DNA of 64,000 nucleotides from Siphonodentalium dalli (taxonomy: Eukaryota > Mollusca > Scaphopoda > Gadilida > Siphonodentaliidae), in contig CP136061.1 in assembly GCA_032622095.1 (NCBI GenBank), forward strand, positions 3,958,005-4,022,004. Reading direction: 5' to 3'. This document shows, piece after piece, positions 8,051 through 48,699 of this stretch. A program made the translations under genes and the position numbers. The notes under the pieces are model-generated. The model saw only the letters and a program-made list of their open reading frames with translations, made no database searches and had not been told where the DNA came from. How positions within the stretch are numbered: position 1 is the first letter of the stretch; each line of letters opens with the position of its first letter.

Positions 8051-8221
8051 GCGTTCTAACAGTGTCAACTTTTTACGAGGAAGATAACGGTGCATGTTAA
8101 AATATTAGAATAGCTCATGTTAATATTATTACACAATTGAGTCTGCCCCATTCAATATAGTTTCCACACAAAAGTTACAAGAGATATGGAAATGTATAGA
8201 AGGCCTGTTCAACAATAGTGG

Positions 8222-8494: not shown

Positions 8495-8523
8495 CTGGAC
8501 ATTTCTTTAAAACATCTGTATCT

Positions 8524-13885: not shown

Positions 13886-13929
13886 GTGGTGAACTTAACG
13901 TTTTCTCAAGTAATAACAAGTAATTTGTA

Positions 13930-14563: not shown

Positions 14564-15420
14564 TGCCCAGGTTACTAGCAAGGTTACGCGGCGTTGTCCA
14601 GGTTACTAGCTTGGTTACGCGGCGTTGTCCAGGTTAAAGTGATGTGAAACCATCTGCTGTAGATATTTGGCGGGCATAGAAGATACTCTTGCTCAAAGTA
14701 TTACACGTATTCTCATAAATTGTATATCCAAATGGCACCACAAAACATCATTTTTATACATTGATTATAAGTAGCGCATAACCCATCTTGTCGTCACACC
14801 CCAACAAAAGGATTTATTTACTTACAAAGTTCTGCTCGTACATAAGACGTTATAATGTTTTTATTCGTACAGTCGACGTGATTAAATTGACGTTTGTTTG
14901 TATTTTTTAATTATTTTGTATTGGGACTCTAACAGGAACACCATGAATACATTAGTTTATAAAAATAATATACGACAATTGGGTTTTAAATAGAGATGTA
15001 TAAATCAATCTAGTGGGTTAGACTAAGATTCTGAGGTCAACTGGTTATCATATCTCCATGAAGATACAGACATTTTACAAAATATGTCCAGGTGCTCATC
15101 TGTTCGTGGTGCTATTCTGGCTAATTATTCTCATTTTAAAATAAATGTTCTTATATATCAGCTACATGTGCCCGACACAGATTTTACGTTGTGTATGTTA
15201 AGCTATGAGTCTGTTCTAATAAAATGAAAGAAACCCATGTAACGGGCAGATGTACCCTTGTCAGATGCCAGTGTTGGAGGATCCTGAAAAGTCATGTGCT
15301 ACTGTGTTTTATTTTACGTTATCTCAGAAAAACTATATTTGATTGCACACTGTGACCAATATTTCAATAGGCCTTCTATACATTTCCACATTTCTTGACA
15401 AATTGTATCTTTTTTGTGGA
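14564..15420 (-). mobile_element. Helitron-like right end, reversed, with relic of the 8.2 kb frame
   Basis: On the minus strand the sequence ends gttgcccagg..., with three tandem copies of the terminal GC block (ggttacccggcgttgcc, then two of ggttacgcggcgttgtcc) and CTAG words between them at 14566-14640. Further in, 15000-15400 is the reverse complement of 8160-8600 at clearly reduced identity, including the frame at 8222-8494 now broken by stops. The matching left end was not found. Triplication of the terminal hairpin is unusual. Confidence 0.5.
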
Positions 15421-17510
15421 ACATATCTTTGAATGAAGAGACTCTCAATTACGTTATAGTACATGCACCATTCTAACATGTCATCATATTGTGATTCAAT
15501 GTCCCTCATCTTGCCAGAATATATGTATCTGTTTAATAGAATGAAAAATATAATTTTAGTGCTTTCTTCTATTTATCTGTTTTTGCGAGTTCAGTATATG
15601 CACTGATTCCAGGCCCCATATAAATATGAGTTGAGAACATATAATTGTTTAAACGGAACGAATAATGGATGAAAACAGTCGCCAGGCAATCATCATTCAT
15701 TGCTAGATCCCTTAATTTGACCCCCCCCCCCCCCACCTGCAAAACAATAATAAAATGCTATTTTTGATTGATCTGTTCATTTCTGATATATCTGTTTATT
15801 TGCAAGCTAATATATAAAATATTAACAAAATACCAAACACAATTTTATTATTGCACGGGAGCAGAATGACATAGCTAGCCGTCTTCCTGCTGCCCTGGGT
15901 GATAGGTTGAATATGAATCTAGGATGACGCATTTACAATTTTTGCACAGACTACTTGATATTTGGATGGCCGGTTGGTGAATGATTTAATATGCTATATG
16001 GGCATTTTAATCGAGACTGAGTTGAAATTTTATCAATGATGTATTGTAATAGTTGATATTTTAGACACGTTCGAAATATTGTAACAAAATTAGTGGAGTG
16101 GTTGCGACAGACCTGTATCACATTCACGAACAACGCCGTGCATGTGACACGTGGCTATCTATGATGTCCAGAGTGATAACTGGAGAACATAATAATAGAG
16201 TTCAAAAGTTAATATACTCAGATGATGGAGTTAAGTGGCGTTTTGCCTACAACAAATATAGCATAATTCGGTTTCACTTGTAACCGATTGAGAATATATT
16301 CCTATTGGTTTCAAAGATTTCACACTTTTTGAATGTGTAATTAAATTAACATTTTTTTATTTTGGAATTAACTGAATTCCACACTTTTGGAAAAAACATG
16401 TTCTATGCTTATTGCTCTTTGTTTTATCCGCCTGTCTAGTGTTAACACAGAGAGAATATGTGAGTATCTTCTTAAACGATTCATGCCCGGTTAGTGGTGT
16501 CTCATGTTCTCATTTTCCAAACAACATTGTGCGAGAGGAGCTACCAACGCCGTGTATCTCCGACACCGGAAATTGCGATTAATTTTGCAAATTTTGTCGT
16601 TTTGATAGTATACCATCGTTAGAATTTCATCAATTTCATTTATAATGCGTAATAATTTTGGCAAAGTCTCTCGCTGAATAAGTTCGTCATACAATGGCCT
16701 TGGTGGATTATCGAGGATGAGTTGAGAAGTTTAACGTTCGCCGAGCAATGATTAATGATAATTACGTCCCTGCACGAGAAAATATCAATCATTCGATCTA
16801 AAACTCTCTTTATTTAATACACAATTAAAGTTTTCTCGAAACATCAATGTGTTTCTAAATAGATTATATCAATAAAGAACGGGTGGGATTTTGTTGTGTC
16901 ATTGTTAGCGCATTCGCTAACAAATCAAACTTAAACGTTGTATGCTAGTGTACGGCAAATTGCAAATGACAGTATATTTACTGTCGTGCGAACTGGGGCT
17001 GTCGCCACCCACAAATAAAGAAATAAACAACTGTGTAGCACAGAGATCGACAAATACTGTGTTGTTTTCCTGAAAAATACAACTAAACTATATAAATACG
17101 ATGGATTGACTGAATTTAATATGAAATAACTTGTGCCAGATCCCCTTGCAGTAATTCGCCGCAATAAAATATGTTTAACTTAAGCCTAGCTGCACCAGGT
17201 CTTGCTTTTAAAGAGGGAAATTGCTCCAACTTGACTTGAAACATATTGGATATGCTTAATATATACAAAAGGGATTAGGGCACACATTTTTGCAAATATG
17301 AAGCCCCTTCCCAGATGTCACAGCTCCCATCGGAACTCCTGAAATTAAAATAAGGAGGACATTTATTGTTCTACTGTGTTCCCCGGCTTGGTTTCTCTCA
17401 CTTAACATTTCAATAACTACGTACTATTTTGCCTTCATATTATAGGTGTTGGTCAACTTTAATTGTGACAATAATCCTATGATAAAACAAACAAAATATA
17501 AAATATAATT
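15421..17510. other. Intron 1, no recognisable gene
   Basis: Contains a C14 tract (15720-15733). At 16545-16580 a block (ccgtgtatctccgacaccgg) is related in reverse complement to 18776-18805. No supported coding frame. Confidence 0.5.
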
Positions 17511-18774: not shown

Positions 18775-21700
18775 CGCAATTTCCGGTGTCGGATATACAC
18801 GGTGATCAAGCGGCGTGTTATCGAGTCTTTTAAGCCCCCAATTGATTACAATGACGGGGGGTTCTAAATAGCACAAGAAGCATGACAGAACAATCAGTAC
18901 GGCTAGTGGTTTTTCATATTCCAAACAATATCTATAGTGACATTTTCTCTTCAATTGATTTCTCTGAGGACGGGACTTTCTCGACTGAACAGGGCAAGCA
19001 GCATCTCACAACTTCTTTCTAGGGCGCAATTGGGAGTCTGTGAGATAAAATTGCGACTCAGATGAATCTTTGGTCACAGAAAAGAAACCCGCAATAGGGT
19101 GATTGTATTTTGGTTTCTTTCGGTGTATATTCAACGAGTATCGTAAGCCATCAACATCGTTAACATTTACTTATTTGTCGAACAATCTCCGGCGTCAGCA
19201 GCTATCAATTGGTATGTTCTCGGTGCGTTTAAGGCTTTAATTTATTCCACAGAGGTCGAGAGTTTCTCGTCTGAATAGCACAGTATAGCACGACCGAACA
19301 TAGTTTAAGTTAATCAGAATTAGAGGAGTTTCATTTTCTAGACAATTTTGTGCGTCAATACAGTCATATCAAGTGACGTGCGTCAATACAGTCATATCAA
19401 GTGACGTGCATCAATACAGTCATATCAAGTGACGTGCATCAATACAGTCATATCAAGTGACGTGCATCAATACAGTCATATCAAGTGACGTGCATCAATA
19501 CAGTCATATCAAGTGACGTTCGTCAATACAGTCATATCAAGTGACGTGCGCCAATACAGTCATATCAAGTGACGTGCATCAATACAGTCATATCAAGTGA
19601 CGTGCATCAATACAGTCATATCAAGTGACGTGCATCAATACAGTCATATCAAGTGACGTGCATCAATACAGTCATATCAAGTGACGTGCATCAATACAGT
19701 CATATCAAGTGACGTGCATCAATACAGTCATATCAAGTGACGTGCATCAATACAGTCATATCAAGTGACGTGCATCAATACAGTCATATCAAGTGACGTG
19801 CATCAATACAGTCATATCAAGTGACGTGCATCAATACAGTCATATCAAGTGACGTGCATCAATACAGTCATATCAAGTGACGTGCATCAATACAGTCATA
19901 TCAAGTGACGTGCATCAATACAGTCATATCAAGTGACGTGCATCAATACAGTCATATCAAGTGACGTGCATCAATACAGTCATATCAAGTGACGTGCATC
20001 AATACAGTCATATCAAGTGACGTTCGTCAATACAGTCATATCAAGTGACGTGCGTCAATACAGTCATATCAAGTGACGTGCGCCAATACAGTCATATCAA
20101 GTGACGTGCATCAATACAGTCATATCAAGTGACGTGCATCAATACAGTCATATCAAGTGACGTGCATCAATACAGTCATATCAAGTGACGTACATCAATA
20201 CAGTCATATCAAGTGACGTGCATCAATACAGTCATATCAAGTGACGTGCATCAATACAGTCATATCAAGTGACGTGCATCAATACAGTCATATCAAGTGA
20301 CGTGCGCCTATACAGTCATATCAAGTGACGTTCGTCAATACAGTCATATCAAGTGACGTTCGTCAATACAGTCATATCAAGTGACGTGCATCAATACAGT
20401 CATATCAAGTGACGTGCGCCTATACAGTCATATCAAGTGACGTTCGTCAATACAGTCATATCAAGTGACGTTCGTCAATACAGTCATATCAAGTGACGTG
20501 CATCAATACAGTCATATCAAGTGACGTGCGTCAATACAGTCATATCAAGTGACGTGCATCAATACAGTCATATCAAGTGACGTGCATCAATACAGTCATA
20601 TCAAGTGACGTGCATCAATACAGTCATATCAAGTGACGTGCATCAATACAGTCATATCAAGTGACGTGCATCAATACAGTCATATCAAGTGACGTGCATC
20701 AATACAGTCATATCAAGTGACGTGCATCAATACAGTCATATCAAGTGACGTGCATCAATACAGTCATATCAAGTGACGTGCATCAATACAGTCATATCAA
20801 GTGACGTGCATCAATACAGTCATATCAAGTGACGTGCGCCTATACAGTCATATCAAGTGACGTTCGTCAATACAGTCATATCAAGTGACGTGCATCAATA
20901 CAGTCATATCAAGTGACGTGCATCAATACAGTCATATCAAGTGACGTTCGTCAATACAGTCATATCAAGTGACGTGCATCAATACAGTCATATCAAGTGA
21001 CGTGCGCCTATACAGTCATATCAAGTGACGTTCGTCAATACAGTCATATCAAGTGACGTGCATCAATACAGTCATATCAAGTGACGTGCATCAATACAGT
21101 CATATCAAGTGACGTTCGTCAATACAGTCATATCAAGTGACGTGCATCAATACAGTCATATCAAGTGACGTGCGCCAATACAGTCATATCAAGTGACGTG
21201 CGCCAATACAGTCATATCAAGTGACGTGCGCCAATAGTCATATCAAGTGACGTTCGTCAATACAGTCATATCAAGTGACGTGCATCAATACAGTCATATC
21301 AAGTGACGTGCATCAATACAGTCATATCAAGTGACGTGCGCCAATAGTCATATCAAGTGACGTGCGTCAATACAGTCATATCAAGTGACGTGCGCCAATA
21401 CAGTCATATCAAGTGACGTGCATCAATACAGTCATATCAAGTGACGTGCGCCAATACAGTCATATCAAGTGACGTGCGCCAATACAGTCATATCAAGTGA
21501 CGTGCGTCAATACAGTCATATCAAGTGACGTGCATCAATACAGTCATATCAAGTGACGTGCGCCAATACAGTCATATCACGTGACGTTCGTCAATACAGT
21601 CATATCACGTGACGTTCGTCAATACAGTCATATCAAGTGACGTGCGCCAATAGTCATATCAAGTGACGTGCGCCAATACAGTCATATCAAGTGACGTTCG

Positions 21701-23900
21701 TCAATACAGTCATATCAAGTGACGTTCGTCAATACAGTCATATCAAGTGACGTGCGCCAATAGTCATATCAAGTGACGTGCATCAATACAGTCATATCAA
21801 GTGACGTGCATCAATACAGTCATATCAAGTGACGTGCGCCAATAGTCATATCAAGTGACGTGCGTCAATACAGTCATATCAAGTGACGTGCATCAATACA
21901 GTCATATCAAGTGACGTGCATCAATACAGTCATATCAAGTGACGTGCGTCAATACAGTCATATCAAGTGACGTGCATCAATACAGTCATATCAAGTGACG
22001 TGCGCCAATAGTCATATCAAGTGACGTGCGCCAATACAGTCATATCAAGTGACGTTCGTCAATACAGTCATATCAAGTGACGTTCGTCAATACAGTCATA
22101 TCAAGTGACGTGCGCCAATAGTCATATCAAGTGACGTGCATCAATACAGTCATATCAAGTGACGTGCATCAATACAGTCATATCAAGTGACGTGCGCCAA
22201 TAGTCATATCAAGTGACGTGCGTCAATACAGTCATATCAAGTGACGTGCATCAATACAGTCATATCAAGTGACGTGCATCAATACAGTCATATCAAGTGA
22301 CGTGCGTCAATACAGTCATATCAAGTGACGTGCATCAATACAGTCATATCAAGTGACGTGCGCCAATAGTCATATCAAGTGACGTGCGCCAATACAGTCA
22401 TATCAAGTGACGTTCGTCAATACAGTCATATCAAGTGACGTTCGTCAATACAGTCATATCAAGTGACGTGCGCCAATAGTCATATCAAGTGACGTGCATC
22501 AATACAGTCATATCAAGTGACGTTCGTCAATACAGTCATATCAAGTGACGTTCGTCAATACAGTCATATCAAGTGACGTGCATCAATACAGTCATATCAA
22601 GTGACGTGCATCAATACAGTCATATCAAGTGACGTGCGCCAATACAGTCATATCAAGTGACGTGCATCAATACAGTCATATCAAGTGACGTGCATCAATA
22701 CAGTCATATCAAGTGACGTGCATCAATACAGTCATATCAAGTGACGTGCATCAATACAGTCATATCAAGTGACGTGCGTCAATACAGTCATATCAAGTGA
22801 CGTGCATCAATACAGTCATATCAAGTGACGTGCATCAATACAGTCATATCAAGTGACGTGCGCCAATACAGTCATATCAAGTGACGTGCATCAATACAGT
22901 CATATCAAGTGACGTGCATCAATACAGTCATATCAAGTGACATGCGCCAATACAGTCATATCAAGTGACGTGCGCCAATACAGTCATATCAAGTGACGTG
23001 CATCAATACAGTCATATCAAGTGACGTGCGTCAATACAGTCATATCAAGTGACGTGCATCAATACAGTCATATCAAGTGACGTGCATCAATACAGTCATA
23101 TCAAGTGACGTGCATCAATACAGTCATATCAAGTGACGTGCGCCAATACAGTCATATCAAGTGACGTGCGCCAATACAGTCATATCAAGTGACGTGCATC
23201 AATACAGTCATATCAAGTGACGTGCGTCAATACAGTCATATCAAGTGACGTTCGTCAATACAGTCATATCAAGTGACGTGCATCAATACAGTCATATCAA
23301 GTGACGTGCATCAATACAGTCATATCAAGTGACGTGCGCCAATACAGTCATATCAAGTGACGTGCGCCAATACAGTCATATCAAGTGACGTGCATCAATA
23401 CAGTCATATCAAGTGACGTGCGCCAATAGTCATACCAAGTGACGTATTCTCGAGACTGTTAAGCCACACAATTGATTCCACTGAGGACAAGAGTTTCTTG
23501 GCTGAATAGAGCAAGATGCACCACTCAACTTCTTCCTAAGGAGTCAATATGAGATATAGCTCTGACTCGAGTCTTTTGCACAAAGAACAGAATTTCGCAA
23601 TAAAGTGGTTGTGTTTGTGTTTTACATGAATGCATGGTATTTCAGTGTAAGTTGGACGAGTATCGTAAGCCATCACTGTCATGTGATGAGTACCAATTGG
23701 TCAGAAATCAATGGTTAACAGTGTTTTATTATTCGAACAATCTCTGACGTGGGTTCCCTGCCACCATCTCTCGCGTCAGCAGCTATCAAGTGTATGATAT
23801 ACTCCCGAGACAATTGCGGCCCCAATTGATTCCACTGAAAACGGAAGTTTCACGGCTCAATATATAGAGCAAGGAGCACAACATAAGTCCATTGATTGTT
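18775..23900. repeat. Degenerate ~440 bp repeat units flanking a 28-bp satellite
   Basis: Words such as aattgattccactgaggac, gagtatcgtaagccatca, gaacaatctc and gcgtcagcagctatcaa recur in the same order at 18780-18990, 19000-19345, 23455-23800 and 23800-23890. The 28-bp array (19351-23449) sits within one such unit, so the satellite appears to have expanded inside an older, longer tandem repeat. Confidence 0.7.
19351..23449. repeat. 28-bp satellite array, roughly 145 copies, with higher-order structure
   Basis: The invariant core is caatacagtcatatcaagtg, followed by acgt and a 4-base variable block: gcat, gcgt, ttcg(t) or gcgc. A 26-bp variant lacks two bases (caatagtc for caatacagtc). Each unit carries a TGACGT word. 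In the right half the variants repeat in a fixed order: 21663-22020 and 22021-22378 are the same 13-unit, 358-bp block, and a third copy starts at 22379 before breaking down. Two units at about 21575-21610 contain cacgtgacg. No unique spacers occur, so this is not CRISPR-like. It lies in intron 1 of the three-exon gene. Confidence 0.95.
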
Positions 23901-24370: not shown

Positions 24371-25231
24371 AATTATTCAGTGCTGAGCTCCATATTTTAG
24401 TTGCATGGATGAACACGTCATTTCAATACTTGTGATGTAATGTTTCCACTTGACTTACTGTTTTGACATTGAGACTGCAAATACTAGATATAGACGTCCT
24501 ACTAGAGCTCACCCATCACACCCTCAGAATGTATATTTCAAAGTGGTCTATATGGATGTTCGGAAGATACTATAATTATGACTTGAGAGTTAAAATACTT
24601 TGCAGACGTGTACATATCTATATTGGCAGTGATTTGGACATTCCCATTTTGACAGTTCAAACGAGTACTTCGTGTTCGAGAATGTCAACATAAATAGTTC
24701 CGACATGGGGCGGAGTTAGGAGCTGTCAAAATGCGCGTTACTGGTATGTGATCCGTGGCGCAATTCACACGTGTGACATTACCACTTTTAATTTACCGAG
24801 AAAACCTTATAAATCCAGTCTGTTCTCGTGAAAATAAGCACAATACGGGATCATTTTATAATTGCGCGAAATTAGCTCATATTGGTATTATTATAAAACT
24901 CAAATACGCTCTATATGGGCCTAAACGTTGGTTATTAAAGCAATTTCAATATGGAATAAGCAGTATTGTGCTTATTTTCACGAGATCAGGTTGGAAAATA
25001 ACACGAATAAGCCAATTCACGACTTACCAGACGTACACACTTGATTATGTGTTTTCACTGCGGCCCGCGCCATCCAACGGAGTATAAGGGTATATTCTTC
25101 CACTATTGGCTTATTTCAGAATCAAATAAATCCAATATGGACATATGTGAATAATTAGCTCTAATTTACACGAGGATATGTTGATAAATGACTTATAATT
25201 ATGGGTGCAATAAAATTATAAAAAATATAGT
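24371..25231. other. Intron 1 segment with a 23-bp inverted repeat pair
   Basis: 24824-24846 (tctcgtgaaaataagcacaa...) and 24963-24985 are exact reverse complements, 116 bp apart, and could form a foldback or be the ends of a small MITE. The 110-codon plus frame at 24755-25087 spans this inverted repeat and has no recognisable domain, so I do not call it a gene. Confidence 0.5.
25226..25231. repeat. Target-site duplication TATAGT, left copy
   Basis: It abuts the first base of the left arm, and the identical hexamer abuts the last base of the right arm at 33733-33738. Arm homology stops exactly at these positions, so the boundary is not arbitrary. Confidence 0.8.
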
Positions 25232-25559
25232 TGATGATATACCGCCCAGTTGGGGGCAGTCTAGACAGTTTGACCTATATTCTCTGCAGGACCCCAGTTG
25301 GGGGCAGTCTAGACAGTTTGACCTATAATCTCTGCAGTTGGTGTCAGTCTATGCAGTTTGACCTAGGTCATCATAGGTCATGACCTACTTTCTCACTAAT
25401 TTACATAATCCTAGGTCATCATATGTCATGACCTATTTGAGGTCATGTGCTAGATGATCTGTAGGGCACCGCTTTCGGTCCACCCGCGTATAATGAACGG
25501 AATATTATCTACATGTATATTACGTGAGGACCTTGATGAACAGGAGGTAGCTTCAGTCT

Positions 25560-25945
25560 TGAATGTTAAAGTGACATTCGGTACTCATAATGTGAATTTA
25601 AAAGGAAACTAGGCACCCACTGTAGATGATTGTTAAAGTGACACTAGGCACTCACTGTGGATGATTGTTAAAGTGACACTCGGCACTCACTGTGGATGAT
25701 TGTTAAAGGGACACTCGGTATTCATAAAGTGAATTTAAAAAAGGAAACTAGGCACCCACTGTAGATGATTGTTAAAGTGACACTGGGCACTCACTGTGGA
25801 TGATTGTTAAAGTGACACTCGGCACTCACTGTGGATGATTGTTAAAGGGACACTCGGTACTCATAAAGTGAATTTAAAGGGACATTAGGCACTCACTGTG
25901 GATGACTGTTAAGGTGACACACGGCACACAATGTTAAAGTGACAC
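25560..25945. repeat. Subterminal tandem repeats, left arm
   Basis: About seven copies of a 40-odd-bp unit: gttaaagtgacactcggcac then tcactgtggatgat. A second form has tcataaagtgaatttaaa. The mirror copy is at 33040-33410. Subterminal tandem repeats are usual in Polinton-type termini, which is supportive but not specific. Confidence 0.85.
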
Positions 25946-25979
25946 TCGCAGTGAAAAACTTTATTCTTTTTAAAAAAAT

Positions 25980-26100
25980 GAAAAATTTCCAAAATTTCCA
26001 AAATTTCCAAAATTCAAAAAACTCAAAAATTTCAAAAACTTCAAAAATTTCAAAAATTTCAAAAAATTTCAAAAATTTCAAAAAACAAAATCAAAATCGA
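25980..26100. repeat. A-rich (aaatttcaaa)n tract, left arm
   Basis: aaaaatttcaaaaatttcaa type tract; its mirror lies at 32825-33010 and is longer there. Phe/Leu- or Lys/Asn-rich frames across it are artefacts. Confidence 0.9.
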
Positions 26101-26104
26101 GAAA

Positions 26105-26825
26105 AGATTAAATAGAGGAGAGGGGAAAGACCAACTGAGCAAGTGAGGAGATGGGGAAAAGAGCAAATGGGCAAGTGAGGAGAGGGAAAGAGGAAGTGAG
26201 CAAGTGAAAAAGAGCAAATGAGCAAGCGAGGAGAGGGAAAAGAGCAAGTGAAAAAGAGCAAAAGAGCAAACCACCAAGGGAAAAAGAGCAAGTGAGCAAG
26301 GGAAAAAGAGCAAAAGAGCAAGGGGAAAAGAGCAAGTGAGCAAGTGAGGAGAGGGAAAAAGAGCAAGTGAGGAGAGGTAAAAGAGCAAGTGAGCAAGTGA
26401 GGAGAGGGGGAAAAGAGCAAGTGAGCATGTGGGGAGGGGAATAAGAGCAAGTGAGCAAGTGAGGTGGGGAAAAAAGAAAAGAGCAAATTAACAAGTGAGG
26501 AGAGGGCAAAAGAGCAAGTGAGCAAGTGCAAAAGAGCAAACGACCAAGGGTAAAAGAGCAAGTGAGCAAGAAGAAAAGAGCAAGGGTAAAGAGCGAGTGA
26601 GCAAGTGAGGAGAGGGAAAAAGAGCAAGTGAGAAGATGGAAAAAGAGCAAGTGAGGAGAGGGAAAAAAGAGCAAGTGAGCATGTGGGGAGAGGGAACAAG
26701 AACAATTGAGCAAGTGAGGTGAGGGAAAAAGAGCAAGTGAGGAGAGGGAATAAGAGCAAGTGAGCAAGTGAGGTGAGGGAAAAAGAGTGAGTGAGCAAAT
26801 GAGGAGAAGGAAAAAGAGCAAGTCA
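26105..26825. repeat. gagcaagtgaggagaggg minisatellite, left arm
   Basis: About 700 bp of gagcaagtgagcaagtgagg and agagggaaaaa words. The same repeat lies reversed in the right arm (32085-32815) and in the central spacer. Frames of 110-245 codons on the minus strand (Leu/Ser/Phe-rich) are repeat artefacts. Confidence 0.95.
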
Positions 26826-26888
26826 ACCATCTTGGCTACCACCCCAATATGAATATATAACGAAGTCGATAATAACAGTTTGATGAAG

Positions 26889-26894
26889 TTTATT
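26889..26894 (-). terminator. Poly(A) signal AATAAA for left zinc-finger gene
   Basis: AATAAA on the minus strand a few bases after the stop codon. An exact counterpart lies at 32014-32019 in the right arm. Confidence 0.6.
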
Positions 26895-26899
26895 AAAAT

Positions 26900-27655
26900 T
26901 TAATCATCGTCTGACTCTTTAACCTTTAGATTTATTTCCAAGAGTTTCTTGAATTTTCTCATGGCTTCATCCGCAGCCCATTCATTATTATATCCGAGTT
27001 TTGTCAGCTTGACCATTTTCTTCATGATAGTGTTATGTATGGGCGATGTTTTCAATCGATGCTGGTATTCTATCAATCGTCTGTAACTTTTGAGAAAGAG
27101 TTCAAAATCTGTGTCGATGCATTCTAGTTGAGCTTTTTCCTCGGCCTCTTCTTCCGGCATGCTCTCTTCTTTCATTAATTGATCAACTTTATCTGACCAC
27201 TCTTCCATCGCTTCCGTACCGTTTCTAACGAGTTGAAACATACTTTTGAATGTATCCATCTCGTTGACACATTTCGCAGCTTTCTTACAGCCGATTACCG
27301 CACTACTACCGGCGAAGCTATTATCTGACGAATCTGATATCATTTCCTGTTCATCTTCGTCGGAATCTATATCCGTCTCTAGATCATACTCAGCATCTTC
27401 GTATTGACTGAATACATCGTTCTTCGACGGTGTTCCTGATATAACTCCGTGTTTACCATTCTTAGCTGATATCATTTCCCGTTCATCTTCATCCGAATCT
27501 ATATCCGTTTCTCGATCATACGCATTATCTTTGTATCGACCGAAGGTATCGTTATTCGATGATGTTCCTGACATAACTCCGTGTTTACTATTCTTATGTC
27601 TTTGTAGATTGTAGTTCGTCGATAATATCTTCCCGCACAAATGGCACCCGTGCAT
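26900..27655 (-). CDS. C2H2 zinc-finger protein, left-arm copy (251 aa)
   Basis: Intronless 251-codon gene. Residues 4-25 form one C2H2 finger (C4, C7, H20, H25). Residues about 24-66 and 67-109 are a tandem internal duplication, each ending in an acidic patch (TDIDSDEDE). Residues 125-251 are predicted helical and charged (KVDQLMKEESMPEEEAEEKA; later SPIHNTIMKKM). The single finger plus acidic linker plus helical tail resembles small DNA-binding proteins that recur in virus-like elements of invertebrates, from memory only. The start ATG is the first after a TATA module about 70 bp upstream, and AATAAA follows the stop. The right-arm copy differs at only four residues. A regulatory or DNA-packaging role is possible but unproven. 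Confidence 0.8.
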   Translation of the reverse strand: MHGCHLCGKILSTNYNLQRHKNSKHGVMSGTSSNNDTFGRYKDNAYDRETDIDSDEDEREMISAKNGKHGVISGTPSKNDVFSQYEDAEYDLETDIDSDEDEQEMISDSSDNSFAGSSAVIGCKKAAKCVNEMDTFKSMFQLVRNGTEAMEEWSDKVDQLMKEESMPEEEAEEKAQLECIDTDFELFLKSYRRLIEYQHRLKTSPIHNTIMKKMVKLTKLGYNNEWAADEAMRKFKKLLEINLKVKESDDD

Positions 27656-27702
27656 TGTCTCGAATTATGGGAAGAACTATCGTCCTTATACGAGCGAAAA
27701 GA

Positions 27703-27774
27703 TGAGCGAATATGGTGTGGTATTATAAACTCACGCGTTCGTACTTCTATTTTTCGTTTAGAGTTGTTGTTCTC
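27703..27774 (-). promoter_or_regulatory. TATA promoter module before left zinc-finger gene
   Basis: On the minus strand: gaacaacaactctaaacg, then aaaaatagaagtacgaacg, then cgtgagtttataatacc. The same module precedes the PC4-like gene and both right-arm genes. TATA lies about 70 bp before the ATG. Confidence 0.7.
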
Positions 27775-27925
27775 AGGTAAAAACAAATTGGCGGCCCCCT
27801 GTCACCGTCCTTGGTAGGGATTGATTAATCGAGTGATAATTTAATGAGCGTTTGTATATGACGCGTATAAGGTCAAATGAATAACGAACGTACGTACATG
27901 AATTATTATTTAATCAAAATTTCAT

Positions 27926-28485
27926 CTAATTGCCCGTGCAACACGTATCGCATAGCATATACGATTCTTGATTGTCGTGACTGAACGAGCACGGTGTGAA
28001 CTCAGTCCAGTCGGGTATTGTCTCTGAAATGTCACTCTTTAGTTCACATAAATTCTGGAATTCTTGAACAGTCAAACAGATTCCACGTTTCGACGGTTTC
28101 ATCACGTCTTCCATAGTTTTATAATAGTCTCGTATATGCACCATCTGAAAATATTGACTATAGCATAAAAATGTCTTATTCCCGATATGAAATTCAGCAG
28201 ATTTCCCCTCTGTTATAGCCGAGTGCATATCACCAGTGAATGAGCAAAAGTTATACCAGCGATTCTTGTCCATAGACATTCCTTTAAGTCCCGGATATAA
28301 TCCATCAACCCAACTACGTATATCAATACGTATTTTGCCTTTAAATTCGCTGACATTTGCGAAAATTTGACTCCCCCAGTTGATGGCTGAAATTTTTTCC
28401 TTCCATATCTTAAGGTTTCTGCAGTAATGAATATATTGTGTAATGAACTCGCGTTTATTCTAATTTTCAACCAATCAAAATGCAT
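27926..28485 (-). CDS. PC4/p15-like coactivator domain protein, left-arm copy
   Basis: Mirror of 30423-30982 and identical in the translated parts. The main frame ends at 27926 and is open back to about 28459. It carries two PC4-like units: one around FKGKIRIDIRSW...LKGMSMDKNRW, and a second around VHIRDYYK...MKPSKRGICLT. The tail has a cysteine cluster (LCDTCC). The only in-frame ATG (28279) would cut the first unit in half. See the right-arm entry for the start and frame question. Confidence 0.75.
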
Positions 28486-28525
28486 AATATTAACGTGTTC
28501 CAGACACGTTTCATTTCTAATTCTA

Positions 28526-28597
28526 GAGAATGCGGTGCGGTATTATATAAACTCGACGCGTCCGTACCTCTATTTTTCTTTTAGAGTTATTGTTCTT
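28526..28597 (-). promoter_or_regulatory. TATA promoter module before left PC4-like gene
   Basis: On the minus strand aagaacaataactctaaaag, then aaaaatagaggtacggacg, then gagtttatataataccg. It is nearly identical to the modules at 27703-27774, 30311-30382 and 31134-31205, and a GC-rich block lies just upstream (ggggccgcgc). Confidence 0.75.
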
Positions 28598-28691
28598 ATT
28601 TTAAAAAATAATTGGCGTGCGCGGCCCCCTCCCCTCCCCTTTTTCGGTGTGGGGTTTTCTTTCGTAAGGGGGGGGTCGTCCGTCGAAAAAA

Positions 28692-30217
28692 CAAAAAGAT
28701 TATTTTTTAAGACTCTTTTTGCTCAGTTGCTGTTTCCCCCTCTCCCCTATTGCTTACTTGCTCTTTCCCCTATCCTCACTTGCTCATTTTCTACTTCACA
28801 TATTGCTCACTTGCTCAGTTGCTCTTTTTCCCCTATTGCTCAGTTGTTCTTTTTCCTCCCCTATTGCTCACTTGCTCTATTCCCATCTCCTCACTTGCTC
28901 ATTCCCTATTGCTCACTTGCTCTCCTCTCCTCCCCTATTGCTCACTTTCTTTTTCCCCTCCCCATATTGCTCACTTGCTCTTTTTCCCTCCCCCCTATTG
29001 CTCCTCAGTTGTTGTTCTTCCCTCCCCTATTGCTCACTTGCTCTATTCCCCTCTCCTCACTTGCTCATTCCCCTATTGCTCACTTGCCATTCTTCCCCCC
29101 TCCCCTATTGCTCACTTGCTTTTTTCCCTCCCCATATTGCTCACTTGCTCTTTTCCCCTCTCCCCCTATTGCGCACTTGCTCTTTTTCCCTCTCCCCCTA
29201 TTCACACAGTTGCTCTCCTTCCCTCCCCTATTGCTAAATTGTTCTCTTTCACCTCTCCTTACTTGCTCAGTTGCTCTTTTCTCCTCCATTATTGCTCACT
29301 TGCTCTTTTCCCTCTTCTCACTTGCTCTGTTCCCTATTGCTCAGTTGTTCTTCTTCCCCTCCCCTATTGCGCACTTGTTCTATCCCCCCCCCCACTTGCA
29401 CATTCCCCTGTTCACTTGATTTTCTTCCTCTTCCCTATTGCTCACTTGCTTTTTTTTCTTCTCCTACCCATATTGCTCACTTGCTCTTTTTTCCTCGCAT
29501 CACTTGCTCTGTTCCCACATTGATCAGTTGCTCTTCTTCCCCTCCCCTATTGCTCAGTTGCTCTTTATTTCCCTATTGCTCAGTTGTGCTTCTTCCCTCA
29601 CCCTTTTGCTCACTTGTTCTTCTTCCCCTCCCCTATTGCTCACTTGCTCTTTTTCCCTTTCTTCACTTGCTCAGTTGCTCTTTATTTCCCTATTGCTCAG
29701 TTGTGCTTCTTCCCTCACCCTTTTGCTCACTTGGTCTTATTCCTCTCCCCTATTGCTCACTTGCTCTTTTTCCCTCTCATCACTTGCTCAGTTGCTCTTT
29801 TCCCTCTCCCATGATGTTTTTTCCCTATTGCTACGTTTCTCTTCTTCCCCCTCCCCTATTGCTCATTTGCTCTTGTTTTACTCTCCTCACTTGCTTAGTT
29901 GTTTTTTTTTTGCCCCTCCTTACTTGCTCAGTTGCTCTTCCCCCTCACTACTATCGCTCACTTGGTCTTCTTCCCTATCCTCAATGCTGAGTTGTTCTTT
30001 TTTCCCTATTGCTCAGTTTCTCTTCTTCCCCCTCCCCTATTGCTCATTTGCTCTTTTTTACTCTCCTCACTTGCTTAGTTGCTTTTTTTCCCCTCCTCAC
30101 TTGCTCAGTTGCTCTTCCCCCTCACTACTATTGCTCACTTGCTCGTTTTCCCTCACCTCTATTACTCAATTGCACTTTTTCCCTCTCCCCTATTGCTCAC
30201 TTGCTCCTTTTCCCTTA
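28692..30217. repeat. Central pyrimidine-rich spacer of the palindromic element
   Basis: About 1.5 kb of cctattgctcacttgctctt and tccctctcc words. The orientation matches the right arm only, so the spacer is not itself palindromic. Long Leu/Ser/Phe/Cys-rich plus frames (up to 330 codons) are repeat artefacts. The two PC4 promoters lie just outside its edges, both firing away from it. Confidence 0.95.
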
Positions 30218-30310
30218 TTTTTTCGACGGACGATCCCCCCTTACGAAAGAAAACCCCACACCGAAAAAGGGGAGGGGAGGGGGCCGCGCGCGCCATTTAT
30301 TTTGTTAAAT

Positions 30311-30382
30311 AAGAACAATAACTCTAAAAGAAAAATAGAGGTACGGACGCGTCGAGTTTATATAATACCGCACCGCATTCTC
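30311..30382 (+). promoter_or_regulatory. TATA promoter module before right PC4-like gene
   Basis: aagaacaataactctaaaag, aaaatagaggtacggacg, gagtttatataataccg. The TATA (tttatataat, about 30357-30366) is 60 bp before the first long-frame ATG at 30423. Confidence 0.75.
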
Positions 30383-30422
30383 TAGAATTAGAAATGAAAC
30401 GTGTCTGGAACACGTTAATATT

Positions 30423-30982
30423 ATGCATTTTGATTGGTTGAAAATTAGAATAAACGCGAGTTCATTACACAATATATTCATTACTGCAGAAACCTTAAGA
30501 TATGGAAGGAAAAAATTTCAGCCATCAACTGGGGGAGTCAAATTTTCGCAAATGTCAGCGAATTTAAAGGCAAAATACGTATTGATATACGTAGTTGGGT
30601 TGATGGATTATATCCGGGACTTAAAGGAATGTCTATGGACAAGAATCGCTGGTATAACTTTTGCTCATTCACTGGTGATATGCACTCGGCTATAACAGAG
30701 GGGAAATCTGCTGAATTTCATATCGGGAATAAGACATTTTTATGCTATAGTCAATATTTTCAGATGGTGCATATACGAGACTATTATAAAACTATGGAAG
30801 ACGTGATGAAACCGTCGAAACGTGGAATCTGTTTGACTGTTCAAGAATTCCAGAATTTATGTGAACTAAAGAGTGACATTTCAGAGACAATACCCGACTG
30901 GACTGAGTTCACACCGTGCTCGTTCAGTCACGACAATCAAGAATCGTATATGCTATGCGATACGTGTTGCACGGGCAATTAG
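30423..30982 (+). CDS. PC4/p15-like coactivator domain protein, right-arm copy (apparent -1 frame change)
   Basis: The PC4 frame is open from 30449 to the stop at 30980-30982. Unit 1 (codons from about 30551) has FKGKIRIDIRSW and LKGMSMDKNRW; unit 2 (about 30731-30910) has VHIRDYYK, MKPSKRGICLT and a final helix. This order (K-x-K beta strand, D/H-I-R, then K-P-x-x-K-G-I-x-L, then helix) is the PC4 single-stranded-DNA-binding fold. The tail has C97, C110, C113 and C114 (numbered from the ATG at 30629). No ATG lies upstream in frame except inside unit 1. An ATG at 30423 in another frame reads 30 codons to an A6 run at about 30511-30516, where a -1 shift would enter the PC4 frame. Both arms share this, so it is ancestral. 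A programmed slip, a non-AUG start or a short spliced leader are all possible. Confidence 0.75.
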
Positions 30983-31133
30983 ATGAAATTTTGATTAAAT
31001 AATAATTCATGTACGTACGTTCGTTATTCATTTGACCTTATACGTGTCATATACAAACGCTCATTAAATTATCACTCGATTAATCAATCCCTACCAAGGA
31101 CGGTGACAGGGGGCCGCCAATTTGTTTTTACCT

Positions 31134-31205
31134 AAGAACAACAACTCTAAACGAAAAATAGAGGTACGAACGCGTGAGTTTATAATACCACACCATATTC
31201 GCTCA
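31134..31205 (+). promoter_or_regulatory. TATA promoter module before right zinc-finger gene
   Basis: aagaacaacaactctaaacg, aaaaatagaggtacgaacg, cgtgagtttataataccac. It corresponds base by base to the PC4 module at 30311, with three short differences. Upstream a GGGGCCGCC block also matches. Confidence 0.75.
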
Positions 31206-31252
31206 TCTTTTCGCTCGTATAAGGACGATAGTTCTTCCCATAATTCGAGACA

Positions 31253-32008
31253 ATGCACGGGTGCCATTTGTGCGGGAAGATATTATCGACGAACTACAAT
31301 CTACAAAGACATAAGAATAGTAAACACGGAGTTATGTCAGGAACATCATCGAATAACGATACCTTCGGTCGGTACGAAGATAATGCGTATGATCGAGAAA
31401 CGGATATAGATTCGGATGAAGATGAACGGGAAATGATATCAGCTAAGAATGGTAAACACGGAGTTATATCAGGAACACCGTCGAAGAACGATGTATTCAG
31501 TCAATACGAAGATGCTGAGTATGATCTAGAAACGGATATAGATTCCGACGAAGATGAACAGGAAATGATATCAGATTCGTCAGATAATAGCTTCGCCGGT
31601 AGTAGTGCGGTAATCGGCTGTAAGAAAGCTGCGAAATGTGTCAACGAGATGGATACATTCAAAAGTATGTTTCAACTCGTTAGCAACGGTGCGGAAGCGA
31701 TGGAAGAGTGGTCAGATAAAGTTGATCAATTAATGAAAGAAGAGAGCATGCCGGAAGAAGAGGCCGAGGAAAAAGCTCAACTAGAATGCATCGACACAGA
31801 TTTTGAACTCTTTCTCAAAAGTTACAGACGATTGATAGAATACCAGCATCGATTGAAAACATCGCCCATACATAACACTATCATGAAGAAAATGGTCAAA
31901 CTGACAAAACTCGGATATAATAATGAATGGGCTGCGGATGAAGCCATGAGAAAATTCAAGAAACTCTTGGAAATAAATCTAAAGGTTGAAGAGTCAGACG
32001 ATGATTAA
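31253..32008 (+). CDS. C2H2 zinc-finger protein, right-arm copy (251 aa)
   Basis: Mirror of 26900-27655: finger at residues 4-25, two acidic repeats, and a charged helical C-terminal half. It differs from the left copy at four positions (K to E near residue 42, R to S and T to A in the middle, K to E near the end), and both frames are intact. An upstream overlapping frame (31122-31409) is a shadow through the promoter. Both copies being open suggests recent origin or continuing selection or conversion between arms. Confidence 0.8.
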   Translation: MHGCHLCGKILSTNYNLQRHKNSKHGVMSGTSSNNDTFGRYEDNAYDRETDIDSDEDEREMISAKNGKHGVISGTPSKNDVFSQYEDAEYDLETDIDSDEDEQEMISDSSDNSFAGSSAVIGCKKAAKCVNEMDTFKSMFQLVSNGAEAMEEWSDKVDQLMKEESMPEEEAEEKAQLECIDTDFELFLKSYRRLIEYQHRLKTSPIHNTIMKKMVKLTKLGYNNEWAADEAMRKFKKLLEINLKVEESDDD

Positions 32009-32013
32009 ATTTT

Positions 32014-32019
32014 AATAAA
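32014..32019 (+). terminator. Poly(A) signal AATAAA for right zinc-finger gene
   Basis: AATAAA five bases after the TAA stop. Confidence 0.6.
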
Positions 32020-32084
32020 CTTCATCAAACTGTTATTATCGACTTCGTTATATATTCATATTGGGGTGGTAGCCAAGATGGTTG

Positions 32085-32815
32085 ACTTGCTCTTTTTCCT
32101 TCTCCTCATTTGCTCACTCACTCTTTTTCCCTCACCTCACTTGCTCACTTGCTCTTATTCCCTCTCCTCACTTGCTCTTTTTCCCTCACATCACTTGCTC
32201 ACTTGCTCTTATTCCCACTCCCCACATGCTCACTTGCTCTTTTTCCCCTCTCATCACTTGCTCACTTGCTCTTTTTCCCTCTTCTCACTTGCTCTTTTTC
32301 CCTCTCCTCACTTGCTCACTCGCTCTTTATCCTTGCTCTTTTGCTCTTTTCCTCTTGCTCACTTGCTCTTTTTCCCTTGGTCGTTTGCTCTTTTGCACTT
32401 GCTCACTTGTTCATTTGCCCTCTCTTCACTTGCTAATTTGCTCTTTTCTTTTTTCCTCACCTCACTTGCTCATTTGCTCTTATTCCCCCTCCCCACATGC
32501 TCACTTGCTATTTTCCCCATCTCCTCACTTGCTCACTTGCTCTTTTCCCTCTCCTCACTTGCTCTTTTCCCCTCTCCTCGCTTGCTCACTTGCTCTTTTC
32601 CCCTTGCTCTTTTGCTCTTTTTCCCTTGCTCACTTGCTATTTTTCCCTTGGTCGTTTGCTCTTTTGCTCTTTTTCACTTGCTCTTTTCCCTCTCCTCACT
32701 TGCTCATTTGCTCTTTTTCACTTGCCCACTTCCTCTTTCCCTCTTCCCACTTGCCCATTTGCTCTTTTCCCCATCTCCTCACTTGCTCAGTTGGTCTTTC
32801 CCCCTCTCCTCTATT
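32085..32815. repeat. cttgctcacttgctctt minisatellite, right arm
   Basis: Mirror of 26105-26825. The order of variant units differs between arms, so the arrays have evolved separately while the genes stayed almost identical. Frames of 108-300 codons here are artefacts. Confidence 0.95.
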
Positions 32816-32824
32816 TAATCTTTT

Positions 32825-33015
32825 CTCGATTTTGATTTTGTTTTTTGAAATTTTTGAAATTTTTGAAATTTTTGAAATTTTTGAAATTTTTGAGTTTTTT
32901 GAACTTTTTGAACTTTTTGAATTTTTTGAATTTTTTGAAATTTTTGAAATTTTTGAAATTTTTGAGTTTTTTGAAGTTTTTTGAATTTTGGAAATTTTGG
33001 AAATTTTTCATATTT
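32825..33015. repeat. (tttttgaaat)n tract, right arm
   Basis: Mirror of 25980-26100 but expanded. Confidence 0.9.
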
Positions 33016-33039
33016 TTTAAAAGAATAAAGTTTTTCACT

Positions 33040-33410
33040 GCGAGTGTCACTTTAACATTCATCCACAGTGAGTGCCTAATGTCCCTTTAAATTCACTTTA
33101 TGAGTACCGAGTGTCCCTTTAACAATCATCCACAGTGAGTGCCGAGTGTCACTTTAACAATCATCCACAGTGAGTGCCTAGTGTCACTTTAACAATCATC
33201 TACAGTGGGTGCCTAGTTTCCTTTTTTAAATTCACTTTATGAATACCGAGTGTCCCTTTAACAATCATCCACAGTGAGTGCCGAGTGTCACTTTAACAAT
33301 CATCCACAGTGAGTGCCTAGTGTCACTTTAACAATCATCTACAGTGGGTGCCTAGTTTCCTTTTAAATTCACATTATGAGTACCGAATGTCACTTTAACA
33401 TTCAAGACTG
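33040..33410. repeat. Subterminal tandem repeats, right arm
   Basis: atccacagtgagtgccgagt, gtcactttaacaatc units, mirror of 25560-25945. Confidence 0.85.
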
Positions 33411-33732
33411 AAGCTACCTCCTGTTCATCAAGGTCCTCACGTAATATACATGTAGATAATATTCCGTTCATTATACGCGGGTGGACCGAAAGCGGTGCCC
33501 TACAGATCATCTAGCACATGACCTCAAATAGGTCATGACATATGATGACCTAGGATTATGTAAATTAGTGAGAAAGTAGGTCATGACCTATGATGACCTA
33601 GGTCAAACTGCATAGACTGACACCAACTGCAGAGATTATAGGTCAAACTGTCTAGACTGCCCCCAACTGGGGTCCTGCAGAGAATATAGGTCAAACTGTC
33701 TAGACTGCCCCCAACTGGGCGGTATATCATCA

Positions 33733-33738
33733 TATAGT
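33733..33738. repeat. Target-site duplication TATAGT, right copy
   Basis: It directly follows the terminal GGTATATCATCA of the right arm and is identical to 25226-25231. Confidence 0.8.
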
Positions 33739-33847
33739 TATCTGGATCCCAGAACCGACCAGAATATGACACATGTCAAGAGAAAATCAGTATAGGTATA
33801 ATTTGATTTTTCGAATCACAATGGGCCTGTAGCATTCTACTCATTAC

Positions 33848-34036
33848 CTCAGTCACTGAAGATCGAGAGATCCATTCGTTGACCTTTGAACTTCTGTAGA
33901 CTCTATCACATCCGGGTCCTGTGCAAATTATGGAATCGTTTCTCCAGGCGTCAAGGACATTGATGGCCGTTCCCATACGAACGCCGAACACCAACTCAAA
34001 CGCATGATCTATAACAAGTATCAGTAGCAGTATCAT
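33848..34036 (-). CDS. Exon 1 of a secreted-protein gene (signal peptide)
   Basis: ATG at 34036, donor GTGACTGAG|gtaatg at 33848/33847, phase 0, 63 codons. The first ~18 residues (MILLLILVIDHAFELVFG) form a signal-peptide-like hydrophobic stretch. They are followed by DAWRNDS and a conserved-looking CTGPGCDRVYRSS with two cysteines. Exon 2 at 12249 and exon 3 at 9859 continue it with matching phases. The product would be a small extracellular protein of at least 178 residues with few cysteines and many tryptophans. Function unknown; I recall similar proteins only as uncharacterised invertebrate families. The frame reads on past the donor for 23 codons, so a single-exon reading cannot be fully excluded. 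A tttatagg word at about 34075 could be a TATA box. Confidence 0.65.
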
Positions 34037-34387
34037 AACAAGAAATATGTTGTGTTATAAAATAAAATAATGTTGCCTATAAATTAGCGGGTAATTACCG
34101 AAACTTGTATATCATGGCATAACTCTCTTAGAAGCCACAATGAAATATGATTTCGTTATTTCACTATAGCTTTTGTTATTGCACTGTAGCTTTACGCGAG
34201 CGAGAATCAATTCGCCCAGTACATATATACCGGACTCCTACCTGTTATATGAACACATTTGGGTCAACCAGTTGTTTCTTTCCGGGTATTGATCAATTTG
34301 TTGTGCAATTAATACAAAAGTGAAAATGCTGCATACTTTAGCAACTCTGAGCATTAATAAGGTGTATATAATAAACATAATACATAG

Positions 34388-34514
34388 TTTTTGTTTGAAT
34401 ACCTGAAACATCTCATTCATGTCTGGAATGAAATATCGAATTTTCACTCGCGCTCGTGAAAATTCGATATTTCTTTCCAGAAACTCATGAGATATTTAGG
34501 TACTCAAACAAAAA
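34388..34514. repeat. Hairpin, arms about 60 bp
   Basis: tttttgtttgaatacct...gaaatatcgaattttcac, an 8-base centre (tcgcgctc), then the reverse complement with few mismatches. The 69-codon minus frame across it is not a gene. Confidence 0.85.
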
Positions 34515-39260: not shown

Positions 39261-41863
39261 TTATAGAAATAAATGTTTTGGTCGTCGAATTCCACCAAAC
39301 TGATATATATATAGATTTGATTGTTCGTCATTGATCCTGGAATAATTATTTAAGGAATTAACATTGTTGTGTCCGGAAATCTGCACAATCTGTGTTGGTG
39401 GAATTCCTTCATCATTCAGGGTCTGTACTAAGTGTTTCCTGACGCTGTATGGAGTTGGTCGCTTGTCACTTACAATATCTGCATCTGCCAACATATTCTT
39501 CATGATCCCGTATAAAGAGTTAATACCAAGGGCGTTCCTTTTGTACCAATCACCCCGCATCCATTCTTGGTGATTCACAGCGAGGAAGAAGGGGCTGTCA
39601 GCTTGGCACATGTCGATCTGTCGTTTAGCCGCATATAGTTCGTAGAGAGAAACAGGATCACGGGTTGAATCATCCAGGGAATAGGCTCGTTGTATGGTTT
39701 GGCTAATCTCTCGTGGATTACTGACAGTCCTCGTTTTTGTGTTACGCTCTTGGCTGTAAACAAGGTATTTATGACCAGTCTCGTCAACTTTTAGCTCAAT
39801 ATCTCCCCATCGTAATGCATGAGTCTCGGTTCCTGTTCTCATTCCGAAATATAAGGCGCACACCACTGGGGAGGATCTATTCCTCGAAATGTGGTGCTCT
39901 CCCGAGCAATATTTACGTGCTTAGCGAGCAACTATTCCGGTGTTCTGTCACATTTTGCTCATTGTGCGACAGAGATGACATGCGTGGGTAATAAACACGC
40001 ATGTTAGTAATGTTTTAAACGCAAATATTGGACGAATGTATACGGGATGGACGTGGCAAAGAAGGTGAGTAATATATGTTGTAATATTATGCTACTATAT
40101 TAGCATTCTGCCCAGTAATATAAATAAATTACTCGATATTTTGCGTTTTTTTGGAAATTCGTCACTTCAACGGCGTATTACCGACTTAATACTGAATACT
40201 GTGTATTGTAACTTTGAATGCCTGTTCCTCAATACATTCCTGAAGTCAATGCAACATGAAAATATCATTAATAACATACCAAATCGAAGAAAACGACCAT
40301 AAAATAGGTCTACATGTGTATTCCGGTGGTTTACTGAGTCTTTGTGTGTTGAATAATCGTTATTCCGGTGCTGAAATCCTACTAAAACGACCTCGTATAA
40401 AGCCACATTGGTGATTATTTGTTCAGAAATGATAATACACGCCATGCCGGGATACAAATGAAGTAGCTCACCCGTTCTGTAGTTAATATAAAGTCAATTA
40501 TTTTGACAATGCGCTTATGCTCACAAAATAGTCAACTTAATAAACTATATATAATATATTACATACTATTTGTGAACACTTGTGCAACAGTTTCTGTTGG
40601 GGATATAACAAGGATAATGACCTATTAATTGCCATAAACCAACCAACTATGTCACATTCCGATTGGCCACAATTACAGTTACACAATAAAAATACGTTCG
40701 ACAATCATTTACTGAACAAGAATTGAGCGTTTGTTATCAGTTATATCCAATAGAACACATGGAAATAATTATAGATTACATAGTTCATTCATATACTCGC
40801 CATTGCGTTTGCTACCCCTGAAATACGTGATTAAACGAACAAAGTATGCCTTTATGGACGTATATGCAACGCAAAATAACATATTAAGTTTATTACCTCC
40901 TAACCAACGCAAAATATTTAGTATTTATTCGCTTTTTTGCTTGTTATAGCACAATACATGATCCTGAGGAGAGCACTTGACTATTGGGAGAGCACTGAGC
41001 ACTCTGTAAAGTATCGGAATATAATTATAAAATGTCGATTTACGGGCATTCCTATGGGATTTCTTACATTTTCTCGCATATCAATGTGAACATCAATATA
41101 AATAATCCATTGGTTAAAAGATACCTGCGATATACTTACATAATCTGTAATTTTTCTTCACTTTTGTGCGGCGAAAATAAAAAATCCCCAGTAAAGCACC
41201 GGAATGTCACGATAAAAATTGCTCAAAAAATTGGTAGAGCACCACATTTTAAGGAATAGATCCTCCCCAGTGGCGCACACCAGCCACATAGAATTATGAA
41301 GTGACTTTGGATATGTAGGTTCCAGAACTCCTTTCTCGTACATGATGTCCATATCCATGTTAGAAATTGGATCCGCCGCCATTGGCTTGTTGTCTTTACC
41401 TTGTGATTTTAAGTGTTTTTGTTTGTTCTTTGATGTTATTTTTAGCTTCGAAATAGATATATATCAAATGAGGATAGAAATGCTCGTAAACTCACAGGTT
41501 CATATTCTGATCCATCCTGTTTTCTGACGGAATGACAAAATTGCACCAGTATTCACACAGCTCCTACGGCGGGATAAATTCCAGTTTCCTTGTTTCGCCG
41601 CTACTTTTGAGAAATGTCAGCAGCAAATTCACATCATAGGCCGTTTAACGAGCAGTGTTGACATTTTGTTGTGTCTCGATGAACGCCTGGACATAACCGG
41701 GCAAATCCTCGACGAATCGGGAAACGACGGCTGACACGATCGAAGTAGCGGGTTCCGTGGGTGCTTCATGTGTTGTGTTGCCAGCAGTATGACCAAGGGA
41801 AATGTGTTCCAGTTCATCGTCTGACAAAGTATCCATCCATAAATCTTGCATTGCCATTTTCAT
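39261..41863 (-). pseudogene. Crypton/KIAA1958-like tyrosine recombinase gene, broken
   Basis: The catalytic part is at 39261-39863: the first catalytic Arg in GMRTGTETHALRWGD, a hairpin Lys in NTKTR, YSVRKHLVQTL (the H of HxxR is Y), GHNN, and the tyrosine in NNYSR. Upstream pieces in order on the minus strand are 41273-41440 (ADPISNMDMDIMYEKGVLEP, PKSLHNSMWLVCA), 41455-41580 (YEPVSLRAFLSSFD) and 41585-41863 (N-terminus with FVEDLPGYVQAFIETQQN). The layout matches tyrosine recombinases with a DUF3504-like C-terminus. Breaks: two in-frame stops (TAA at about 41647, TAG at about 41575), at least two frame changes, and a MITE at 39864-41272. The C-terminal end runs into a dispersed repeat. It is certainly inactive. 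Confidence 0.75.
39864..41272. mobile_element. hAT-type MITE (1.4 kb) inserted in the recombinase pseudogene
   Basis: The terminal inverted repeats begin CACTGGGGAGGATCTATTCC (39864) and its exact complement ends at 41272. Similarity continues for about 38 bp (aaatgtggtgctct). An 8-bp target duplication GCGCACAC flanks it (39856-39863 and 41273-41280). Eight-bp duplications and CA..TG ends fit the hAT superfamily. Removing the insert would bring the two recombinase pieces into the same reading frame at a shared V-C-A, which independently confirms the boundaries. There is no transposase frame inside. Confidence 0.85.
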
Positions 41864-48690: not shown

Positions 48691-48699
48691 AGGACAATT

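Follow-up and report, generated by a model that had tools for sequence, protein, structure and literature searches.

The window analysed here, a stretch of 64,000 nucleotides from the scaphopod mollusc Siphonodentalium dalli (assembly GCA_032622095.1, contig CP136061.1, forward-strand positions 3,958,005 to 4,022,004), contains a palindromic element of 8499 bp at window positions 25233-33731, each inverted arm of which carries two apparently complete genes. We consider that this element is probably a non-autonomous DNA transposon of the foldback, or long terminal inverted repeat (TIR), type, which moves by cut-and-paste with a target duplication most likely of 8 bp and with a transposase most likely of the Mutator type. 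The foldback plan is evident in its exactly defined ends, the target duplication, the long arms with their repeats and a centre that lacks a core.

Structure of the palindrome

The palindrome is genuine. Its left arm (25233-28692, 3460 bp) is an inverted copy of the right arm (30217-33731, 3515 bp), and in a global alignment of the two, 3392 of 3440 ungapped positions matched, with 48 mismatches and 12 gaps, the largest gap being a 62-bp length change within an A/T-rich repeat. The same arm lengths had been given in the initial annotation of this region, which was made from the letters alone. Inverted-repeat detection returned the arms piecewise; among the pieces were blocks of 2083, 692, 318 and 153 nt at 93-99%.

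From each end inward, the order of features is a 48-bp repeat, AGGTCA-type inverted motifs, 35/139-bp repeats, an A-rich run, a minisatellite, a gene for a protein with a C2H2-like finger (the finger gene), a gene for a protein with two PC4 domains and the CT-rich centre. In the left arm, the subterminal repeats span 25245-25934 (48-bp repeat at 25245-25337, 35/139-bp arrays at 25560-25934), and tandem-repeat detection placed the GAGCAAGT-type minisatellite array at 26115-26823. The AGGTCA half-sites, which occur as inverted pairs near both ends (25359-25435 and 33529-33605), may be binding sites.

Divergence between the arms was uneven. It was highest in the GAGCAAGT array, with 27 mismatches over 709 bp; the A-rich run (180 bp) had 4, the finger gene (756 bp) 7, the stretch separating the two genes (270 bp) 3 and the innermost 233 bp 6, and it was lowest at the outer ends (a single mismatch over 702 bp) and in the PC4 frame (none over 534 bp). 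Such a pattern could reflect either selection or patchy conversion, and the numbers of mismatches are too small to decide between them.

The centre (28693-30216) spans about 1.5 kb and is made up of tandem repeats, rich in CT and related to the arm arrays, and no coding core was seen in it. Centre and right arm hold repeat families with common units in the same orientation, and the centre therefore resembles more of the arm's own array and not a unique core. A central array in right-arm orientation fits a copied or expanded arm, with one copy only from which to judge between a head-to-head dimer and an arm expansion. Long inverted arms, internal tandem repeats and a variable middle, by which foldback transposons are recognized, are all present here.

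Palindromes are prone to fold-back during assembly, and the sequence studied is that of the assembly only; even so, it is exceedingly improbable that the palindrome is a fold-back chimera of one arm, given the 48 mismatches and 12 gaps between the arms, the distinct flanks, the direct repeat abutting both ends and the unshared centre. Assembly fold-back was accordingly rejected on the unrelated flanks and diverged arms.

Termini and target duplication

Alignment of the arms bore out the exact termini of the initial annotation, TGATGATATACC/GGTATATCATCA. The element is abutted on the left (25225-25232) and on the right (33732-33739) by an 8-bp direct repeat, ATATAGTT, which is a probable target duplication; under this 8-bp reading the termini are GATGATATACC/GGTATATCATC. 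A target duplication abutting exact ends is expected of a foldback transposon, and together these features uphold the earlier view that this is a mobile element of foldback form. That view had included a 6-bp duplication, TATAGT, and whilst this hexamer does stand on both sides (25226-25231 on the left), it is a subset of a direct repeat that extends to 8 bp, so that the duplication length is compatible with 8, 7 or 6 bp.

The same abutting 8-mer was found at two random window sites in 178 of 2,000,000 trials and the same abutting 6-mer in 831 of 2,000,000, both frequencies being pushed up by the window's own satellites. At a per-base match chance of 0.263, the 8-bp reading involves one chance match (~0.26), namely a terminal T/A pair extending the inverted repeat, and the 6-bp reading involves two (~0.07). 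For this reason 8 bp is favoured over 6 bp by only about 4 to 1, which is a preference and not proof.

An inverted comparison of the 1-kb flanks scored 77.3, against 70.6-83.3 in 10 shuffles; the flanks are without inverted similarity, and therefore the palindrome stops where the direct repeats start. The sequence GGTATATCATC was found again at 2219, with no adjoining element sequence visible by eye or by BLAST. A BLAST comparison of the element with the rest of the window gave 10 rows, of which 8 were to a simple-repeat stretch (1267-1419) and 2 were matches of 22 bp at E 0.11.

Genes within the arms

Each arm holds two open frames, and all four read outward from the centre, the arrangement initially annotated and borne out by the listing of open reading frames (ORFs). 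Frames of 250 or 175 codons did not arise in 1000 mononucleotide shuffles of each.

The inner frame, of 177 aa from stop to stop, lies at 27926-28459 (minus strand) in the left arm and at 30449-30982 (plus strand) in the right arm, and the two copies have identical codons (0 of 178 differ). The curated Pfam profile identified two PC4 domains in it (E 2.2e-20 over two stretches, 72.3 bits against a cut-off of 25), which places it in the PC4 family; a PC4 chain from PDB matched the first half at E 7.8e-5 and another PC4 (p15) chain matched the second half at 8.1e-5. Judged by eye, a short first exon spliced from ~30414 to 30493 is possible for this gene.

The finger gene (26900-27655, minus strand; 31253-32008, plus strand) would encode a protein of 251 aa with one C2H2-like finger (zf-C2H2, E 8e-4, below the Pfam cut-off). 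An in-frame 132-bp internal duplication has produced an acidic repeat in this protein, with 27 acidic and 6 basic residues in 91, whilst its C-terminus is without a family match. Between the arms the finger gene shows 3 silent and 4 replacement changes.

Both genes are preceded by a common promoter-like module, identical at 78 of 94 aligned columns (83%) and with a TATA motif in each. In the right arm the module lies at 30291-30383 before the PC4 gene (TATATAA at 30359) and at 31115-31203 before the finger gene (TATAATA at 31181), both on the plus strand. The minus-strand spans of the left arm, mirrored from the right, are 28525-28617 (PC4 gene, core motif at 28575) and 27705-27793 (finger gene, core motif at 27752). 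Across the 64-kb window there are four occurrences of the core motif, AAATAGA(A/G)GTACGNACGCGT, one ahead of every gene copy. Poly(A)-type hexamers start 12 bp past the stop of the PC4 frame (ATTAAA at 30994) and 6 bp past that of the finger gene (AATAAA at 32014). Judged by these sequence signals, the module, motifs and hexamers look like signs of real transcription units.

Searches for homologues returned nothing for either protein in NCBIfam. The protein database gave no candidate for a 117-aa PC4 frame, 0 of 8 candidates at E<=10 for the 177-aa PC4 frame and 0 of 506 candidates for the finger protein. Among viral contigs there were 0 exact matches to the terminal 20-mer, and 5 and 18 pattern matches to the two proteins, none of which was confirmed; GTDB prokaryote contigs likewise gave 0 for the terminal 20-mer. 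These negatives say little, as animal genomes lie outside the viral and prokaryote collections and the animal share of the protein database is uncertain. Rfam gave 0 matches in 24500-34500 and no tRNA was found in the window. Single-sequence structure predictions were too poor to use (mean predicted local distance difference test scores, pLDDT, of 35.1 and 46.5). In the open-licence literature, no PC4-bearing transposon appeared among the matches listed, the phrase ‘pc4 domain’ occurring in one paper, on an archaeon.

These proteins could themselves be the mobility machinery of an undescribed autonomous kind of element, since they are the products of its only recognizable genes, present in two copies with one promoter-like module and with PC4 frames identical between the arms. 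We regard this as very unlikely, however, as searches of Pfam and NCBIfam linked neither protein to a nuclease, recombinase or transposase family, and the identity between the arms may reflect recent copying.

Affiliation of the element

No transposase, polymerase, integrase or capsid frame was seen among the listed frames of the element; mobilization in trans, as initially suggested, is therefore presumably correct. The accompanying proposal of a Polinton/Maverick affiliation was not supported: no core gene was seen, the end motif is unlike that of vertebrate Mavericks and a duplication of 8 bp reads at least as well as one of 6 bp. The core genes looked for were those for a protein-primed polymerase B, integrase, protease, ATPase and capsid, none of which was seen in the ORF lists read by eye. 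The Pfam scan of element frames covered those of the two genes and an overlapping frame of 90 aa, the other ORFs being judged by eye, and the sensible matches of the gene frames were to PC4 and C2H2 only. Vertebrate Mavericks were located by 5'-(AG)3 or (AGT)2 end motifs and have TIRs of 46-1447 bp, in the portion of that study available (PMC8097293). Neither TGATGAT nor GATGAT, the termini of the present element, agrees with these motifs, a comparison that applies to vertebrates only. Polinton membership was rejected because no core gene stood among the listed frames and because the ends lack the vertebrate motif, the duplication length deciding neither way.

In a broader form, the proposal would be that a Polinton/Maverick or other virus-like element has lost its core and kept long arms. 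The likeness to vertebrate Mavericks extends to the possession of TIRs and to 6 bp of flanking repeat, as TATAGT can be read (PMC8097293, as available), and the genes face outward and look virus-like in being compact, in sharing a promoter-like module and in having poly(A)-type signals. Yet the listed frames show no core gene, the end motif differs, the arms are much longer than the 46-1447 bp TIRs and the element is 8.5 kb against 12.7-24.6 kb for intact copies in the accessible part of that survey, whilst the direct repeat reaches 8 bp and no viral-contig relative was found (0 hits in one pattern scan, 0 confirmed in two protein scans). Such an origin is improbable.

Known foldback elements are closer in plan. 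In the accessible text on Tetris of Drosophila virilis (PMC4079207), the TIRs are up to 1735 bp long, modular and with internal tandem repeats, the middle is variable and non-coding, no transposase was found, the duplications are of 8-10 bp and the authors place the element in Mutator. Tetris differs from the present element, which has 3.5-kb arms with two genes each, in its shorter TIRs and, so far as that text describes, in having no conserved open frames. The Tm1 Mutator/Foldback family of root-knot nematodes, as portrayed in the available part of its description (PMC3169594), has composite TIRs; of 53 elements, 45 have duplications of 8-10 bp, and the gene Cg-1 is found in one member. In contrast to the genes reported here, Cg-1 lies between the TIRs and is not duplicated in them, and some Tm1 copies encode a transposase. 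The Mutator superfamily is our first guess as the source of the missing transposase, because both Tetris and Tm1 are assigned to it, mostly with 8-10 bp duplications. It is the presence of apparently complete genes within its arms that makes the element unusual.

Other members of this superfamily offer partial likenesses. Mutator-like elements (MULEs) have TIRs and 8-11 bp duplications, and Rehavkus has a minisatellite near its end and 9-bp duplications, according to the available part of one survey (PMC6446971); there, however, a transposase is present and Rehavkus TIRs measure 26-400 bp. Against the MULE range of 8-11 bp, a duplication of 8 bp is possible for the present element, from one copy only, and no MULE-type transposase was seen in it (ORF lists; Pfam on gene frames). 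Pack-MULEs are likewise TIR elements moved in trans and carrying genes or gene fragments, but in the accessible text of two studies (PMC6431247, PMC3310237) their gene-fragment cargo lies between the TIRs, whereas here apparently whole genes lie inside the arms behind their own promoter-like modules.

Several observations weigh against a foldback transposon of Mutator type with real genes in its arms. Mobility rests on one copy's target duplication, the length of which is uncertain, and no transposase is tied to the element ends. Duplications of 8 bp are also produced by elements of hAT, P and other superfamilies. As regards the genes, an ATG-initiated PC4 reading starts inside the first domain, with no in-frame ATG before that domain, and the TATA and poly(A) signals are weak alone because such hexamers recur elsewhere in 30201-32100 (TATAAA at 30785 and TATAATA at 31916; AATAAA at 30449 and 31972; ATTAAA at 31063 and 32004). 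No foldback element with complete genes duplicated in its arms was named in the titles or abstract starts among the matches listed. One plant MULE study, in its accessible text, required 9-11 bp duplications (PMC3310237), and MULE TIRs in the portion available of the survey cited above were 14-500 bp in the text and at least 640 bp at maximum in a table (PMC6446971), far below 3.5 kb.

Two further readings were weighed. The element may belong to a different cut-and-paste superfamily and still be a foldback transposon, with P (Galileo-like), hAT and KDZ/Zisupton as examples; we hold this to be possible though unlikely. The 8-bp repeat would fit these groups equally, but the GATGAT termini are not known to resemble hAT or P ends, and no transposase was seen. 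Galileo shows that a foldback form can arise in the P superfamily, as indicated by a title cited in PMC4079207. It is rather doubtful, more speculatively, that the element represents a new animal mobile-element group whose arms are gene-bearing by design, in which a tandem-PC4 single-strand binder and a finger protein, encoded in both arms behind one promoter type, would serve the element's mobility or replication, perhaps by stabilizing the opened palindrome, and the transposase or full-length parent would lie elsewhere.

Proposed mechanism

For a non-autonomous foldback transposon, we propose that mobility depends on an external transposase, most likely a member of the Mutator superfamily, which would bind to the outermost 0.7 kb of both arms, where the tandem subterminal repeats lie, and cut at GATGATATACC. 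The arms may have grown to 3.5 kb, or an intervening core may have been lost, with the junction inside the minisatellite, and the arms would thereby have come to include two complete-looking genes. Outward transcription of each gene would be by host RNA polymerase II, starting at the gene's own TATA-containing module and ending at the poly(A) signal just past the stop. The tandem-PC4 protein is predicted to bind single strands, perhaps those of opened palindrome DNA, and the finger protein may bind DNA and regulate or assist mobility; the genes may be passengers, or helpers binding single strands and repeats. The arms would have stayed long and nearly identical through recent copying or gene conversion.

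Neighbouring features

Elsewhere in the window, a 219-aa frame at 39261-39920 (minus strand) matched DUF3504 (2.9e-11) and Phage_integrase (3.2e-10), as a tyrosine recombinase that we take to be Crypton-like. A PAN-domain match in the window was below cut-off. An older inverted pair (8094-8605 and 14982-15487, 77% over 533 aligned columns) surrounds a 13-bp minisatellite (12990-13890) and is possibly another long-TIR element, whilst the region 3636-5084 is foldback-like: tandem repeats of 131 bp (3660-4123) recur downstream in inverted form at ~68-72% identity. The window also holds a 28-bp satellite (19350-23445; 147 copies, 95% matches) and a 21-bp array (47958-48316; 17 copies, 100% matches), after which comes a 124-bp repeat at 99% (48349-48694).

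Implications

The length of the target duplication is best measured on many copies before a Polinton label is applied, and the element defines a 200-bp end that can be used to find its parent. Its predicted single-strand DNA-binding protein is offered as a candidate helper for the moving or copying of a palindrome. No genes are described inside the arms of the published foldback elements compared here, and intact-looking, co-regulated genes in both arms would show that such arms can be coding.

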